Shown one piece after another: positions 20,043-27,822 of a DNA stretch of 27,822 nt. The notes below the pieces were generated by a model, which made no database searches, was not told the DNA's origin, and saw only the letters and a list, made by a program, of their open reading frames with translations. Source of the DNA: a virus; the IMG/VR virus record IMGVR_UViG_3300033439_001090, positions 1-27,822 of that record. One strand, given 5' to 3'. Position 1 is the stretch's first letter; each line of letters starts with the position of its first letter. Made by a program: the position numbers and the translations under genes.

Positions 20043-20792
20043 CTATAACCATTTGTTTTTCTTAAGTATTCTGGCCAGATCACCCAGGCTTCCCCGAATA
20101 ATTTCTGCGAATCGCTTTTCATCAATCGGCAAATCATACAAATCGATCACTTCATTCGCCGATCGGTTATCAACGACCAATGCCGATACCAGTTCGCGCA
20201 CGGTCACCCGCCGCCCCTCAATGACAGGCACCAGGGCTTTTTTAGACCAGGGAATATAAGCCGTTGTGAACAGTTCCACACCCTCAACGCCGATGCGTTC
20301 CAATGGCGTGACAACATCGGAACGGCCACCCTGGACCCGCCCGGTTTCGATCCCTTCCGATCGTTGCGCATACATGGCGCGTTGAAACCCGTCCATAATT
20401 TCGCACAATCTTTCCGCCGCCGCCCAATGGGTGCGGCTGATCGCGCCCGCTTTCAACATCTTGATAACCTGATCGGGCTTCACCTTGGCGCAGGTTTCCG
20501 GCGTTCCGCCTAACTTGCCGACCCGTTCATTCTGAATATCCCGATCATCCGCAAATCTGGATTGCTTGAGCCTATCCAGAATTGCCCGGAAAGTTATTTG
20601 ATTGGAACCTGGCAGTTCATCCAAACGATCTTGAACGATCCTTGCCAGTTCGGCTTTGCATTCGCTTTGCCTGTATCCCAGGGCTTTTGCAACCCGCGCC
20701 CATCCTGCAGGCCGCCCCTTACCACGCCGCATTTTTACCAACTGTCGCCGGGCTTCATCGGTCCACGTTGGGTTATCGGATGATCCGCCCAT
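20043..20792 (-). CDS. Putative DNA-binding regulator (unknown)
   Basis: 249 residues from the ATG overlapping the initiator stop as TGATG (an in-frame TTG lies one codon earlier). The N-terminus (residues about 8-50: NPTWTDEARRQLVKMRRGKGRPAG, WARVAKALGYRQSECKAEL) looks like a Myb/SANT-type or GcrA-like helix-turn-helix. The C-terminal half (about 125-240) has AAERLCEIMDGFQRAMYAQ and a following pattern of VTVRELVSALVVDNRSANEVIDLYDLP that recalls the DUF6456 group of alphaproteobacterial phage proteins. It is the last gene of the early module, before tandem terminators and the packaging genes, a common place for a late-transcription regulator. Function is inference. Confidence 0.55.
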   Translation of the reverse strand: MGGSSDNPTWTDEARRQLVKMRRGKGRPAGWARVAKALGYRQSECKAELARIVQDRLDELPGSNQITFRAILDRLKQSRFADDRDIQNERVGKLGGTPETCAKVKPDQVIKMLKAGAISRTHWAAAERLCEIMDGFQRAMYAQRSEGIETGRVQGGRSDVVTPLERIGVEGVELFTTAYIPWSKKALVPVIEGRRVTVRELVSALVVDNRSANEVIDLYDLPIDEKRFAEIIRGSLGDLARILKKNKWL

Positions 20793-21664
20793 CAATGCGC
20801 CCGCCGGCCTTCCCGCCGGCTTTCAACCCGTTCGGTGGCCCGCTTGCTCATAGCCAGGCTTTGCCAGGTGCCGATTACAAATTCAATCTTGCGGTTGAGA
20901 ACATCGGCCATAATGGCCAGATAGTTTTGCTCGATCCAGTTTTTGTAAAACGCCGTCGCCACCATCAACTTGATCACCGCTCCATCGTCTGCCAACACTT
21001 CCAGCTTGCAGACATAGACATTCCAAGCCTCATCCCCAAGCCGATCGATCAGGTGTTGTTCGCATCGTTTCCAATGGCTGTTCGCCGGTAGTGGTTTAGG
21101 TTCATCCGCCGCCGCCAGATCATCGCCGCTATCGCGCGTGTCTTTTCTATTAATGGTTAATGATGGATTCAGTGCCAAGCTATGGCACTCTGAAACGTTT
21201 GTTTTGGCACTCTGAAATGCGGTTTTGGCACCCTCAGGTGTTCGGTCTGGCACCCTCAGATGTTCATTTTGGCACTCTGAGATGTTCGTTTTGGCACCCT
21301 CGGGGGGTGCCGCTGTGGCACCCTCAGACAGGTTATCCACATTATCCGGGGGTGCCGCTGTGGCACCCTCAACATCATCTTTCAGAGCCCGAAGTTTTGA
21401 AATCACAAACCTGTAGACAGGGATTTTGCCGCCGTGCTGGGTCGGTTTGTATTCGTAACAAACCAGCGCCCCGGCCTCGCGAAGTTCCTTTAAAATTCGC
21501 ATTACAGTGCGCCGGGCAACCCCGGTCCGGTTGACCAGGCTATCGATCGTCGGATACATTGACGCCCCTTCGTCGTTGGCATAGTCGGCCAGGGCCAGCA
21601 AAACCAGCTTGCGGTTCGACTTCACCTGCAACCCCCAAACCTCGCTACTCATTCGCACACTCAT
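20792..21664 (-). CDS. Phage replication initiator: winged helix plus DnaA N-terminal domain
   Basis: 290 residues in three parts. Residues about 1-92 are a winged helix of the O-protein/HTH_36 type (NRKLVLLALADYANDEG, MYPTIDSLVNRTGVARRTVMRILKELREAG). Residues about 95-195 are a low-complexity linker in which EGATAAPP occurs twice and EGAK/SAK/SEC motifs repeat, because the DNA underneath is an iteron array. Residues about 198-265 match the DnaA N-terminal domain (WKRCEQHLIDRLGDEAWNVYV, then TAFYKNWIEQNYLAIM), which in DnaA contacts DnaB. So the protein probably binds iterons with its N-terminus and loads host helicase with its C-terminus, as lambda O does. It overlaps the MT-A70 gene as ATGA with GGAG eight bases upstream. 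Confidence 0.82.
   Translation of the reverse strand: MSVRMSSEVWGLQVKSNRKLVLLALADYANDEGASMYPTIDSLVNRTGVARRTVMRILKELREAGALVCYEYKPTQHGGKIPVYRFVISKLRALKDDVEGATAAPPDNVDNLSEGATAAPPEGAKTNISECQNEHLRVPDRTPEGAKTAFQSAKTNVSECHSLALNPSLTINRKDTRDSGDDLAAADEPKPLPANSHWKRCEQHLIDRLGDEAWNVYVCKLEVLADDGAVIKLMVATAFYKNWIEQNYLAIMADVLNRKIEFVIGTWQSLAMSKRATERVESRREGRRAH
21183..21325 (+). repeat. Iteron array, core TGGCACyCT
   Basis: The core TGGCAC(T/C)CT begins at 21183, 21205, 21226, 21248, 21270, 21292 and 21316 (steps 22, 21, 22, 22, 22, 24), with an eighth copy at 21361. Units 2-6 share a longer consensus GTTTTGGCACyCTGArATGTTC with variations. Two units are embedded in longer palindromes. Spacing near two helical turns places sites on one face of DNA. 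Confidence 0.85.
21333..21341 (+). promoter_or_regulatory. Consensus DnaA box TTATCCACA
   Basis: Exact match to the 9-base DnaA box consensus TTATNCACA, between the two GGGTGCC...GGCACCC palindromes. Its position inside an iteron array argues against chance. It suggests host DnaA takes part in origin activation. Confidence 0.7.
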
Positions 21665-22659
21665 AGACCCAACTCCATATCCTTGCGCGGTATCTCATTG
21701 CCCCAACTGACAAACCCCGGCCTGACCTGGCGTTCAAACAAGGCCAGATATGGCCCGCCGACCAGCCGGCGCACGCTCTCATAAAATTCATCGGGTTTTT
21801 CTGAATGGTCGCCGCGTTTGTCCCAGATGATTTGCCGTTCGGTGGCGCTGAATCGCTCTGGTGATCCTTTTGTTAACAACCAGACGCACTCCGATTGGTT
21901 GTGTGTCCATTTGCCATTGCCGAACGCCAGATCGTCATTATTCTTGTTTTGCTTGTACCAGTCATAGGGCCGCGTCGACCAGGTGAAGCCCCAGGCATTG
22001 GCGACGGCTTCCATTTGCGATGGCGACAACCAGTCAACGACCCACAGAAACAGCGCACAATCATCCGCCGCCAGTTCGGCCACCGGCAATGCCTTGATTT
22101 CGTCCAGGGTCATGGTGCCGTAATGCATATCCGGCGCACGCCCGCCGCCCTTTTGCGACCAGGTTTCATACCGCCAGGCCGGATCGGCGCTGATCGCCCC
22201 GAACTTTTTGCCGCTGGCCACCAGGGCGTGCAGATCATCGACGCTGCAACCATCCGCCGCCGCCGTGTTGACCGCCTGATACATATTTTTCCGAAACCGG
22301 GTAACATCGGCCTTATTCATATCCGGCTTGAAATGCCGCGCCTCAACCGCTTCGGAAAATTCATCATCACTTAAACGGGTAATTTCATATAGAGCCGTAA
22401 CGTCGGTAGGTAAAAGCGTCACCGTAGACGCATTTCGCAACCGCGCATCGCCGGCGATCCGCATCAGGCGTTGCGCGGTGCGCTTTTGAAATGCCAGATC
22501 CGCATCCACCATCATCAAAAATTCACCGTGCGGTAGCGCCGCTTTGGCCGCGATCAGGTTGTCGCCCGCCGAAAAATAGCGCTCGCGGGCTTCATCCCAA
22601 TCGTCATTGATGCGCTTCGCCCAAACATCACGGCTCACCGGTTCGGCTATCGCGTCCAT
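21661..22659 (-). CDS. MT-A70-type adenine DNA methyltransferase with DUF3102-like N-terminus
   Basis: 332 residues. Residues about 10-130 are helical with EARERYFSAGDNLIAAKAALPHGEF and FQKRTAQRLMRIA, a DUF3102-like pattern found fused or next to phage and plasmid DNA-binding proteins. Residues about 153-325 are an MT-A70 methyltransferase: ISADPAWRYETW with the catalytic DPAW (159-162, in place of DPPW), HYGTMTLDEIKALPV (179-193), CALFLWVV, and SEKPDEFYESVRRLVGGPYLALFER before SWGNE. It would methylate adenine N6 using S-adenosylmethionine, probably to protect phage DNA or affect replication. It begins within the 3' end of a 54-residue gene and overlaps the initiator gene by four bases. Confidence 0.85.
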   Translation of the reverse strand: MDAIAEPVSRDVWAKRINDDWDEARERYFSAGDNLIAAKAALPHGEFLMMVDADLAFQKRTAQRLMRIAGDARLRNASTVTLLPTDVTALYEITRLSDDEFSEAVEARHFKPDMNKADVTRFRKNMYQAVNTAAADGCSVDDLHALVASGKKFGAISADPAWRYETWSQKGGGRAPDMHYGTMTLDEIKALPVAELAADDCALFLWVVDWLSPSQMEAVANAWGFTWSTRPYDWYKQNKNNDDLAFGNGKWTHNQSECVWLLTKGSPERFSATERQIIWDKRGDHSEKPDEFYESVRRLVGGPYLALFERQVRPGFVSWGNEIPRKDMELGL

Positions 22660-24834: not shown

Positions 24835-25632
24835 TTATTCCGCCGCCGAAAATAGCGTTCGCGGTTCAAAGTTTGTAAAAATGACTTCTTCGGCATGGTT
24901 GCCGGCGTTATTGACCAGCCGCGATGCGTGCCGGCACCAGTCCTTAAAATAATCATCGTAAATTGTGCCAAGCGACATTGTGACAATGACCTTTGCGCGG
25001 GCTTCACATAGCCGCCGCGCCAGATCTTCATGTTGAGCGTTTGACATTTTAATGCGATATCGCCGGCCTACGGCACCCGGATAAGGCGGATCCGCGAACA
25101 GCAAGCATTCTTCGGAATCGTAATCATCAACAATTTTGAGTGCATCAGTACTGCGAATGCATATTCCGCGAAGCCGTTCCGCAACATCAATCAACCGGTC
25201 AGGCAATCGCGCCCAGGCTAATTCCGGCGCGACTGTCTGGCCCTTTGACCAACGAAGGCCGGTTTTATGGATATCGCCGCCACGGCCAAACCAGCTACAA
25301 ATCAAAAACCGCCGCGCCTTCTCTATTGGATCACCCGATTCCGGCGTATGGTAAACCCGCCTTAATTCGGCATCCGAAAATGGCGTCAACTCGATCGCCT
25401 CATAAAGGGCGCTGGCCTGGCCACTTCGCAACACATCAAACAGATTGATAATATCATCGTTCAAATCGTTTATTACTTCGCGGCGATGCCGTGGCTTGCG
25501 AAGCGTCACAATTGCCGACCCGCAAAACATATCTACCCACGTCGAAACACCATCGGGAATCAATGCATGGATTTGCGAACACATCCGATCTTTAGATCCG
25601 TAATAATTCACTGGCCGTTTAACCTGGTTCAT
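24835..25632 (-). CDS. D12-class (Dam-type) adenine-N6 DNA methyltransferase
   Basis: 265 residues, the usual length. Motif X is NYYGSK (9-14); the SAM-binding motif I is DMFCGSA (34-40) followed by INDLNDDIINLF (54-65); the catalytic motif is DPPY (181-184) in CLLFADPPYPG. This order marks the D12/alpha class, typified by Dam (GATC) and DpnM; the target here is not known from sequence. It may protect phage DNA from host restriction or time replication. GATC looks frequent in this window, in line with, but not proof of, that target. It precedes the HNH nuclease by 12 bases. Confidence 0.88.
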   Translation of the reverse strand: MNQVKRPVNYYGSKDRMCSQIHALIPDGVSTWVDMFCGSAIVTLRKPRHRREVINDLNDDIINLFDVLRSGQASALYEAIELTPFSDAELRRVYHTPESGDPIEKARRFLICSWFGRGGDIHKTGLRWSKGQTVAPELAWARLPDRLIDVAERLRGICIRSTDALKIVDDYDSEECLLFADPPYPGAVGRRYRIKMSNAQHEDLARRLCEARAKVIVTMSLGTIYDDYFKDWCRHASRLVNNAGNHAEEVIFTNFEPRTLFSAAE

Positions 25633-26937: not shown

Positions 26938-27822
26938 ATGTGGCATGACGTGAAAGCGGTTTTGATCGAAATGTTGGTAGGCATTCTGTATCCAATTAAC
27001 GCGCCGCTCGAATGGTGCGGCGAGCGGATTTCGAGTTGGGGACCGTCGCAATGGATCAAAGCCATTCAAATTGTCGGCATGTTTGCTGCAATCTCGGTTA
27101 TTCTCGCCACATTTGCTGACCGTGTTGGCCCAGAATGGTTTTCGTTTAGATTTTGGCAGGAAGGTGGCGTCAATACGTCGCGTAGTGAAGTTCTGCGTAA
27201 CGTGGGTCTTTTGACCGTTGGTATTATCGGTCTTGGTTTTGGAATATGGCGTTCCTACGCGACCTATCAGCAAATTGTTGAAACGCGTCGGCAAACTGGG
27301 GTTTCTGAACAAGGGCTTTTCACGGACCGTTTCTCGTCGGCGATTGATCATTTGGGCAGCGCCGATCTTCCGGTTCGACTTGGCGGTATTTATGCCCTTT
27401 GGCGATTGGCTGAGGATTCGGCTGCCCGGGATAAAAAGTCCGTCTGGGATATTTTGTGCGCCTTTGTGCGCAACCCGCCCCATAAGACCATTCCCGAACC
27501 ATCGGATCAAAAGCCGGATGAAGATATTGATGCCGTCGGACCCGCCCCGTTCCGTCCGGATATCCAGGCTGTTCTGAACCTTTTTGGGGGGGAGGAAGCG
27601 GTCCGTCAAAGGACAGAAACCGGTTATGTGTTGGACTTTCACAACTCGGACTTGCGCGAGGGGGTGTTTCGCTGGGCGTACCTGAATGGGGCGGACCTGA
27701 CCGGGGCGGACCTGACCGGGGCGGACCTGACCGGGGCGCACCTGACCGAGGCGAACCTGACCGGGGCTGACCTGACCGGGGCGGACCTGACCAGGGCGGA
27801 CCTGACCGGGGCGCACCTGACC
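26938..27822 (+). CDS. Pentapeptide-repeat membrane protein (3' end outside window)
   Basis: Frame of 295 codons open at the window edge. GGAGG sits six bases before the ATG. Two TM segments (about 43-60 and 87-104) precede a soluble part with QGLFTDRFSSAIDHLGSADLPVRLGGIYALWRLAEDS (about 125-161), the conserved pre-repeat region of membrane pentapeptide proteins, then SVWDILCAFVRNPP. From codon 247 (27676) the A(D/N/H)LTG repeats begin, a right-handed quadrilateral beta-helix: nine complete pentapeptides and part of a tenth. Function in this family is mostly unknown. It lies divergent to the phage operon, so it may be a moron or host DNA. The antisense frame over it (GQVRPGQV repeats) is spurious. 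Confidence 0.85.
   Translation, partial: MWHDVKAVLIEMLVGILYPINAPLEWCGERISSWGPSQWIKAIQIVGMFAAISVILATFADRVGPEWFSFRFWQEGGVNTSRSEVLRNVGLLTVGIIGLGFGIWRSYATYQQIVETRRQTGVSEQGLFTDRFSSAIDHLGSADLPVRLGGIYALWRLAEDSAARDKKSVWDILCAFVRNPPHKTIPEPSDQKPDEDIDAVGPAPFRPDIQAVLNLFGGEEAVRQRTETGYVLDFHNSDLREGVFRWAYLNGADLTGADLTGADLTGAHLTEANLTGADLTGADLTRADLTGAHLT
27676..27822 (+). repeat. 15-base tandem repeat, unit GCGGACCTGACCGGG
   Basis: Nine full 15-base units and 12 bases of a tenth; most differ from GCGGACCTGACCGGG at no more than one or two positions (variants: TAC and AAT in the first, CAC, GAG, AAC, GCT, AGG). Each encodes one pentapeptide. It continues past the window edge. Confidence 0.95.

Follow-up and report, generated by a model that had tools for sequence, protein, structure and literature searches.

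A probable iteron origin inside a phage initiator gene whose product ends in a predicted DnaA domain I

Genes at the locus

We analyzed a window of 27,822 bases, which is IMG/VR virus record IMGVR_UViG_3300033439_001090. The window encodes a lambda-type large terminase (Pfam GpA domains), and its tail genes lie on the minus strand. A gene for a replication initiator overlaps both of its neighbors (Table 1). The MT-A70 methylase gene and the initiator are probably co-translated, because the four-base overlap is at the start of the initiator. The 250-aa protein encoded immediately downstream takes the position of lambda P; it matched no Pfam or PHROG family and gave no hint of a helicase loader. 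No P-like partner was recognized in either neighboring gene of this incomplete contig. Likewise, no helicase, primase or loader family was recognized in Pfam and PHROG searches of the tested genes around the initiator, on a contig that is a linear fragment, so that a helicase loader could sit beyond its ends. This absence is consistent with a phage that relies on the host helicase. At the right end of the contig, a tandem 15-bp repeat, GGGCGGACCTGACCG, is present in about 10 copies (27674-27822). The repeat reaches the contig end and is probably the point where assembly stopped.

Table 1. Coordinates of the genes, protein domains and DNA elements at the initiator locus
Feature	Position	Strand	Remarks
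250-aa protein gene	20043-20795	-	Immediately downstream of initiator, 4-base overlap
Initiator gene	20792-21664	-	ORF, 290 aa: HTH_36 winged helix, disordered linker holding the putative origin, predicted DnaA domain I
DnaA_N (DnaA domain I), presumed replisome-docking module	20897-21079	-	aa 196-256; Pfam E 7.1e-11, 42.1 bits, cut-off 24.6
AT-rich stretch, candidate unwinding element	21141-21168		21/28 A/T (75%); coding-3' side of array; short
Dyad AGTGCCA-AGCTA-TGGCACT	21171-21189		Left end of array; absent from the initial annotation
Eight TGGCACYCT cores	21183, 21205, 21226, 21248, 21270, 21292, 21316, 21361 (span 21183-21369)	+	Steps 22, 21, 22, 22, 22, 24, 45
Dyad GGGTGCC-GCTGT-GGCACCC, first copy	21305-21323		Exact palindrome, in sequence
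Perfect DnaA box TTATCCACA	21333-21341	+	Between cores 7 and 8; TTATCCGGG next, at 21342
Dyad GGGTGCC-GCTGT-GGCACCC, second copy	21350-21368		Exact palindrome, in sequence
HTH_36 (PF13730) winged helix, presumed iteron-binding domain	21470-21616	-	aa 17-65; Pfam E 6.5e-12, 45.5 bits, cut-off 25
MT-A70 DNA adenine methylase gene	21661-22659	-	4-base overlap with initiator start
D12-class DNA adenine methylase gene	24835-25632	-	Second methylase gene of the window

The initiator matches PHROG replication initiation families (best phrog_391, 7.6e-17). Its first 90 residues, which include the HTH_36 winged helix, are predicted by AlphaFold with pLDDT above 85. Weak structure matches of the winged helix (best E 1.3e-3) include 4pql, 4pt7 and 5kbj, whose titles name a DNA binding protein, an initiator and a Rep-DNA complex. 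Residues 103-189 form a linker that is mostly below pLDDT 50 and hence predicted to be disordered. The initial annotation had assigned a DnaA domain to the initiator, and this was borne out for the C-terminal part. Pfam detected DnaA_N also when the C-terminal 103 aa alone were the query, and a Foldseek search with a model of aa 188-290 matched DnaA domain I (4tps, E 4e-4, rmsd 1.8; 2e0g ranks third), although this model is of moderate confidence and the domain I models have a mean pLDDT of 68. HMM and fold together support that the C-terminus is a DnaA domain I. The AAA+ domain III and the DNA-binding domain IV of DnaA are absent, as Pfam finds no domains besides HTH_36 and DnaA_N in the protein. 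At E 0.1 the initiator matched neither RepA_N (PF06970) nor Phage_rep_O (PF04492), whereas lambda O, which has Phage_rep_O where the window protein has HTH_36, matches the latter at 5.7e-36. The window initiator and lambda O both touch phrog_391, at opposite ends; this family combines a window-like N-terminus with a lambda-O-like C-terminus.

An iteron array in the linker-coding part

The initial annotation described an array of seven TGGCACYCT cores plus an outlying eighth, two palindromes, a DnaA box and an AT-rich left end. We found all of them as described, and all array elements fall within the linker-coding part of the initiator ORF, as it had stated. The core does not occur elsewhere in the window, and all eight copies have the same orientation. 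A first-order Markov model predicts 0.22 cores per window (maximum 3 in 300). A period-22 tandem array was detected over 21183-21297. The last step is about two steps long, as though one core were missing. The DnaA box is the only perfect one in the window, with 0.17 expected per window and 0.0014 per 228 nt. The AT-rich stretch is real, though short. Thus, phased direct repeats, an AT-rich element and a DnaA box, which are features of iteron origins, are present together. TGGCAC is also the -24 element of sigma-54 sites. This identity was ruled out for the cores, as TTGC does not follow any of them at the distance of a -12 element.

The cores occupy all three frames of the initiator gene, so that the same nine bases are translated as EGAT, SECQ or RVPD. 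Because of this, it is the DNA rather than the protein that is selected in the linker repeats. Disorder of the linker is as expected, because its peptide follows from the DNA. The initial annotation had suggested that the DNA repeats shape the linker, in which EGATAAPP occurs twice, and the three frames and the predicted disorder agree with it; at other cores the translation is SECQ or RVPD.

Linker repeats in other HTH_36 initiators

Exact-peptide searches found no close relative of the whole initiator or of the terminase in IMG/VR, and none of the initiator in GTDB. We therefore compared distant HTH_36 initiators, from phages of Bordetella, Aeromonas, Vibrio and Bifidobacterium and from plasmids of Arsenophonus and Azospirillum, together with 80 loci from IMG/VR and 27 from GTDB genomes. 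HTH_36 is present in 62 of 62 scanned members. The initiators were grouped into 71 clusters at about 50% shared 4-mers. In a frame-breaking test, we counted pairs of identical 7-mers lying out of frame or in inverted orientation, and set the counts against shuffles preserving protein and codon use. Fifty-three of the 71 clusters exceeded all 100 synonymous shuffles, against 8 of 110 control genes, taken from elsewhere in these loci and in the window. The median z was 4.6 in initiators and 0.7 in control genes, and the window initiator reached 10.3. About a quarter of the clusters gave no clear signal. The median position of the frame-breaking repeats is usually at codons 98-150, directly after the winged helix (135 in the window). 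The distances between them have a peak at 22 and 23 bp, seen in 33 and 32 of the 71 genes where 4.5 and 4.0 would be expected, and harmonics appear at 45 and 66-67. For independence, one random member was taken per group at 40% identity, since single linkage at 30% merges nearly all relatives; 40 of 56 still exceeded the shuffles, and the 22/23 bp pair was found in 41 of 56 (9.7 expected).

The iteron cores themselves differ between family members. GGTGC, GTGCA and GTGAC are over-represented in linkers, with no or only slight excess in the C-terminal part. Immediately 3' of the arrays, a stretch of 40 nt exceeds the mean AT content of the gene by 8%. The lambda O gene is proven to carry an origin, and its annotation places the ori iterons within the coding sequence; it gave 71 pairs against 20.6 in the same test, with a median at codon 127. 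From the shuffles, the spacing, the AT-rich flank and lambda O, it follows that the repeats-in-linker layout is a property of the HTH_36 initiator family, as judged by comparing sequences. Recurrence of iterons at the same place in homologous initiators had been proposed as a check of the initial annotation, and it held in the 53 clusters with their 22-23 bp period. Its idea that the initiator gene holds an iteron origin is thus strengthened by comparison, but the arrangement is less exceptional than was thought, as linker iterons are the rule in these initiators.

These results also bear on the view that the repeats are a protein feature of a low-complexity linker, or that they arose by recent tandem duplication and do nothing as DNA. 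EGATAAPP is indeed present twice, and linkers are commonly repetitive. However, steps of 22 are not a multiple of three, the repeats surpass synonymous shuffles, and the same period recurs in unrelated sequences across the family. We rejected the protein-repeat reading on the three frames and the shuffles, and either form of this view is very hard to credit.

Two TGGCACYCT copies at iteron spacing were found at 34 loci in viral contigs. Only L040/L041 and L044 have them in an HTH_36 linker, and L029 has two cores ahead of its HTH_36 domain. At another locus (L018:10785-11015), an initiator gene of the plasmid RPA type (PF10134) has ten 22-bp repeats, TGGCACCCTCAGRTATCCAGTA, next to it. Over its first 14 bases this repeat is identical to the window iteron TGGCACCCTCAGAT, despite the different initiator family. 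For the remaining loci of the 34, no link was recognized. Six viral contigs (L016, L017, L021, L032, L036 and L043) share an arrangement of TGGCACYCT in both orientations, outside ORFs of at least 80 aa, and are possibly one family of iteron replicons. The AT-rich motif CCATCATTAACCATTAA was considered as a shared element, but with 14 matches in viral contigs and none in HTH_36 genes it was attributed to chance. A 502-aa HTH_36 protein on the minus strand of an alphaproteobacterial genome (L193) has a very long linker array of PPKMSRAPSKSEQGT, with 200 frame-breaking pairs against 60 expected.

The C-terminal DnaA domain and host DnaA

HTH_36, linker repeats and DnaA_N are combined in two relatives. 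One, L148, from a Kordiimonas MAG, has GGGGGTGCAAAATATGCAC repeats, and its DnaA_N scores 20.0 bits, under the cut-off. The other, L205, from an alphaproteobacterial genome, has AAGCGCGCAAAACGCGCGGTAGG repeats; its frame test is not significant because these are spaced 36 bp apart. Other family members end in Phg_2220_C or DnaT. Because relatives and phrog_391 differ at the C-terminus, sequence comparison indicates that the N-terminal half with the iterons is common among HTH_36 initiators and the C-terminal half is exchanged. The DnaA_N part gave no match among annotated phages.

We aligned the domain with chromosomal DnaAs. F239 corresponds to E. coli DnaA F46, and this residue is kept in 8 of 8 aligned domains. 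F46 is part of the surface that binds DnaB and DiaA (PMC5448010). W198 corresponds to W6, which mediates dimerization of domain I (PMC5448010); its equivalent is kept in the window and L148 and missing in L205. The equivalent of E21 is not kept.

In the linkers of 86 initiators, four genes have TTATNCACA boxes, where 0.28 would be expected and 200 shuffles gave 2 at most. The three boxes other than that of the window are in relatives with other C-termini, and L148 and L205 have none. This suggests that a DnaA box is uncommon in the family and probably accessory, and we take host DnaA as an accessory factor in some members. The initial annotation had host DnaA recruited to the origin as well. 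The enrichment of boxes speaks for it and their absence from the two other DnaA-domain initiators against it, which leaves this part of the annotation tenuous.

Host DnaA could have a larger role at the same origin. In that case, domain I of the initiator would bind domain I of host DnaA through W6-face oligomerization instead of docking a helicase, and host DnaA bound to the box would open the DNA and load DnaB. The perfect box within the array fits this, as does the W6 equivalent, the dimerization residue (PMC5448010), in the window and L148. However, L148 and L205 have no box in their linkers, boxes occur where the C-terminus is of another kind, and L205 lacks the W6 equivalent yet keeps that of F46. 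We regard this route as unlikely, though not negligible.

Proposed origin and its function

We consider it likely that the array is the theta-type replication origin of the phage, lying within its own initiator gene and used through winged-helix binding, DNA opening and helicase docking by domain I. DNA-level selection, the place and period of the repeats, the AT-rich flank and the identity of the domains are observed; the steps that follow are a model. The N-terminal winged helix would bind the iterons; these recur every two turns of the DNA, and the sites would therefore lie on one face of the double helix. The resulting nucleoprotein complex, possibly joined by host DnaA bound to the box, would open the AT-rich stretch. 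DnaA domain I, on its long flexible linker, would then present a surface for docking DnaB (or DnaA, DiaA or a loader), and would thereby recruit the host helicase with no need for a P-like loader from the phage. As protein, the linker would be dispensable, a spacer written by the DNA repeats.

Binding of the iterons by the winged helix is well supported by sequence comparison and by analogy with lambda O and pSK41 Rep, because HTH_36 is the common part of the family while the C-terminal domains differ. By analogy with E. coli DnaA, we infer that the DnaA-like domain recruits or loads DnaB. Lambda O and pSK41 Rep likewise suggest that the C-terminal module docks to the host replication machinery.

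Iteron-binding initiators often control their own genes. The array might therefore be an operator for autoregulation, at which the initiator or a repressor binds the gene body and blocks transcription, with the origin elsewhere; the three dyads could be dimer sites. However, eight phased sites in mid-gene, 300 bases downstream of the start, with an AT-rich flank and a DnaA box and at the same place across the family, fit an origin better, and the same layout is an origin in lambda and pSK41 (PMC5703833). We think it improbable that the array is an operator only. The operator and origin roles may coexist.

More tentatively, and with rather less than even confidence, we propose that HTH_36 initiators are modular. 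The origin-binding half and the iterons would travel as one cassette, and the C-terminus would be swapped to fit the local host replisome. It could be a lambda-O-type tail, Phg_2220_C, a DnaT-like domain, a DnaG-binding domain or, as in the window, a DnaA domain I taken from the host initiator. This last tail would call the host helicase without host DnaA or a loader of the phage's own. If the proposed origin is true, a piece of the host initiator became the helicase-docking part of a phage initiator. It would also be a small testable system in which DnaA domain I can be studied by itself, away from the AAA+ motor. Origins in many uncharacterized phages can be sought with a simple rule from the survey: in the linker of an HTH_36 initiator gene, look for repeats that break the frame and are spaced 22-23 bp apart.

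Comparison with known systems

The closest layout is that of phage lambda O and ori-lambda. As in the window, the origin lies in the initiator gene, the iterons are about 20-24 bp apart in the linker-coding part, the AT-rich stretch is on the coding-3' side, the DNA-binding domain is N-terminal and the replisome-contact domain is C-terminal. Lambda O passes the frame-breaking test at the same codons. Lambda O hands over DnaB through P, whereas the window has DnaA domain I in that place and no recognized P-like gene.

In the staphylococcal plasmid pSK41, whose Rep is of the RepA_N type, experiments showed that the N-terminal winged helix binds the sites, which are central in the rep gene, that the linker peptide is dispensable, and that the C-terminal domain is host-specific and binds the replisome (DnaG) (PMC5703833). 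The hybrid pPR9/pUSA03 Rep has a phage-type HTH_36 (pfam13730) N-terminus, and pPR9 Rep supports autonomous replication (PMC5703833). The window initiator is like pSK41 and pPR9 Rep in its mid-gene sites and shares the HTH_36 N-terminus with pPR9 Rep. However, RepA_N proper is a winged-helix family other than HTH_36, and the C-terminal module of these Reps is a DnaG-binding, DnaD-like domain instead of DnaA domain I.

Three alphaproteobacterial or plasmid systems share other parts. The run-off-replication origin of Bartonella (ROR gene 4) is phage-derived and alphaproteobacterial, and its O-like gene contains palindromes and a dip in GC content (PMC3610622), but the origin sits upstream of a phage helicase gene, unlike the window. 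In repABC plasmids, oriV lies inside the initiator gene repC with an AT-rich region, but repC has no iterons or DnaA boxes (PMC3155836). The DnaA-like protein (DALP) of Rickettsia plasmids is an alphaproteobacterial plasmid replication protein with a C-terminal DnaA_N on a variable N-terminal part, so that a C-terminal DnaA_N as such is already known (PMC4316617). DALP has about 500 aa against 290 in the window initiator, and two Megaera proteins that we scanned (L185 and L186) are DALP-type with no HTH_36 match. In the literature searched, we found no description of DnaA domain I as the C-terminal module of an HTH_36 phage initiator. Origins within the initiator gene are a known kind, with examples in phage lambda and in plasmids of staphylococci; what is unusual here is the DnaA ending.
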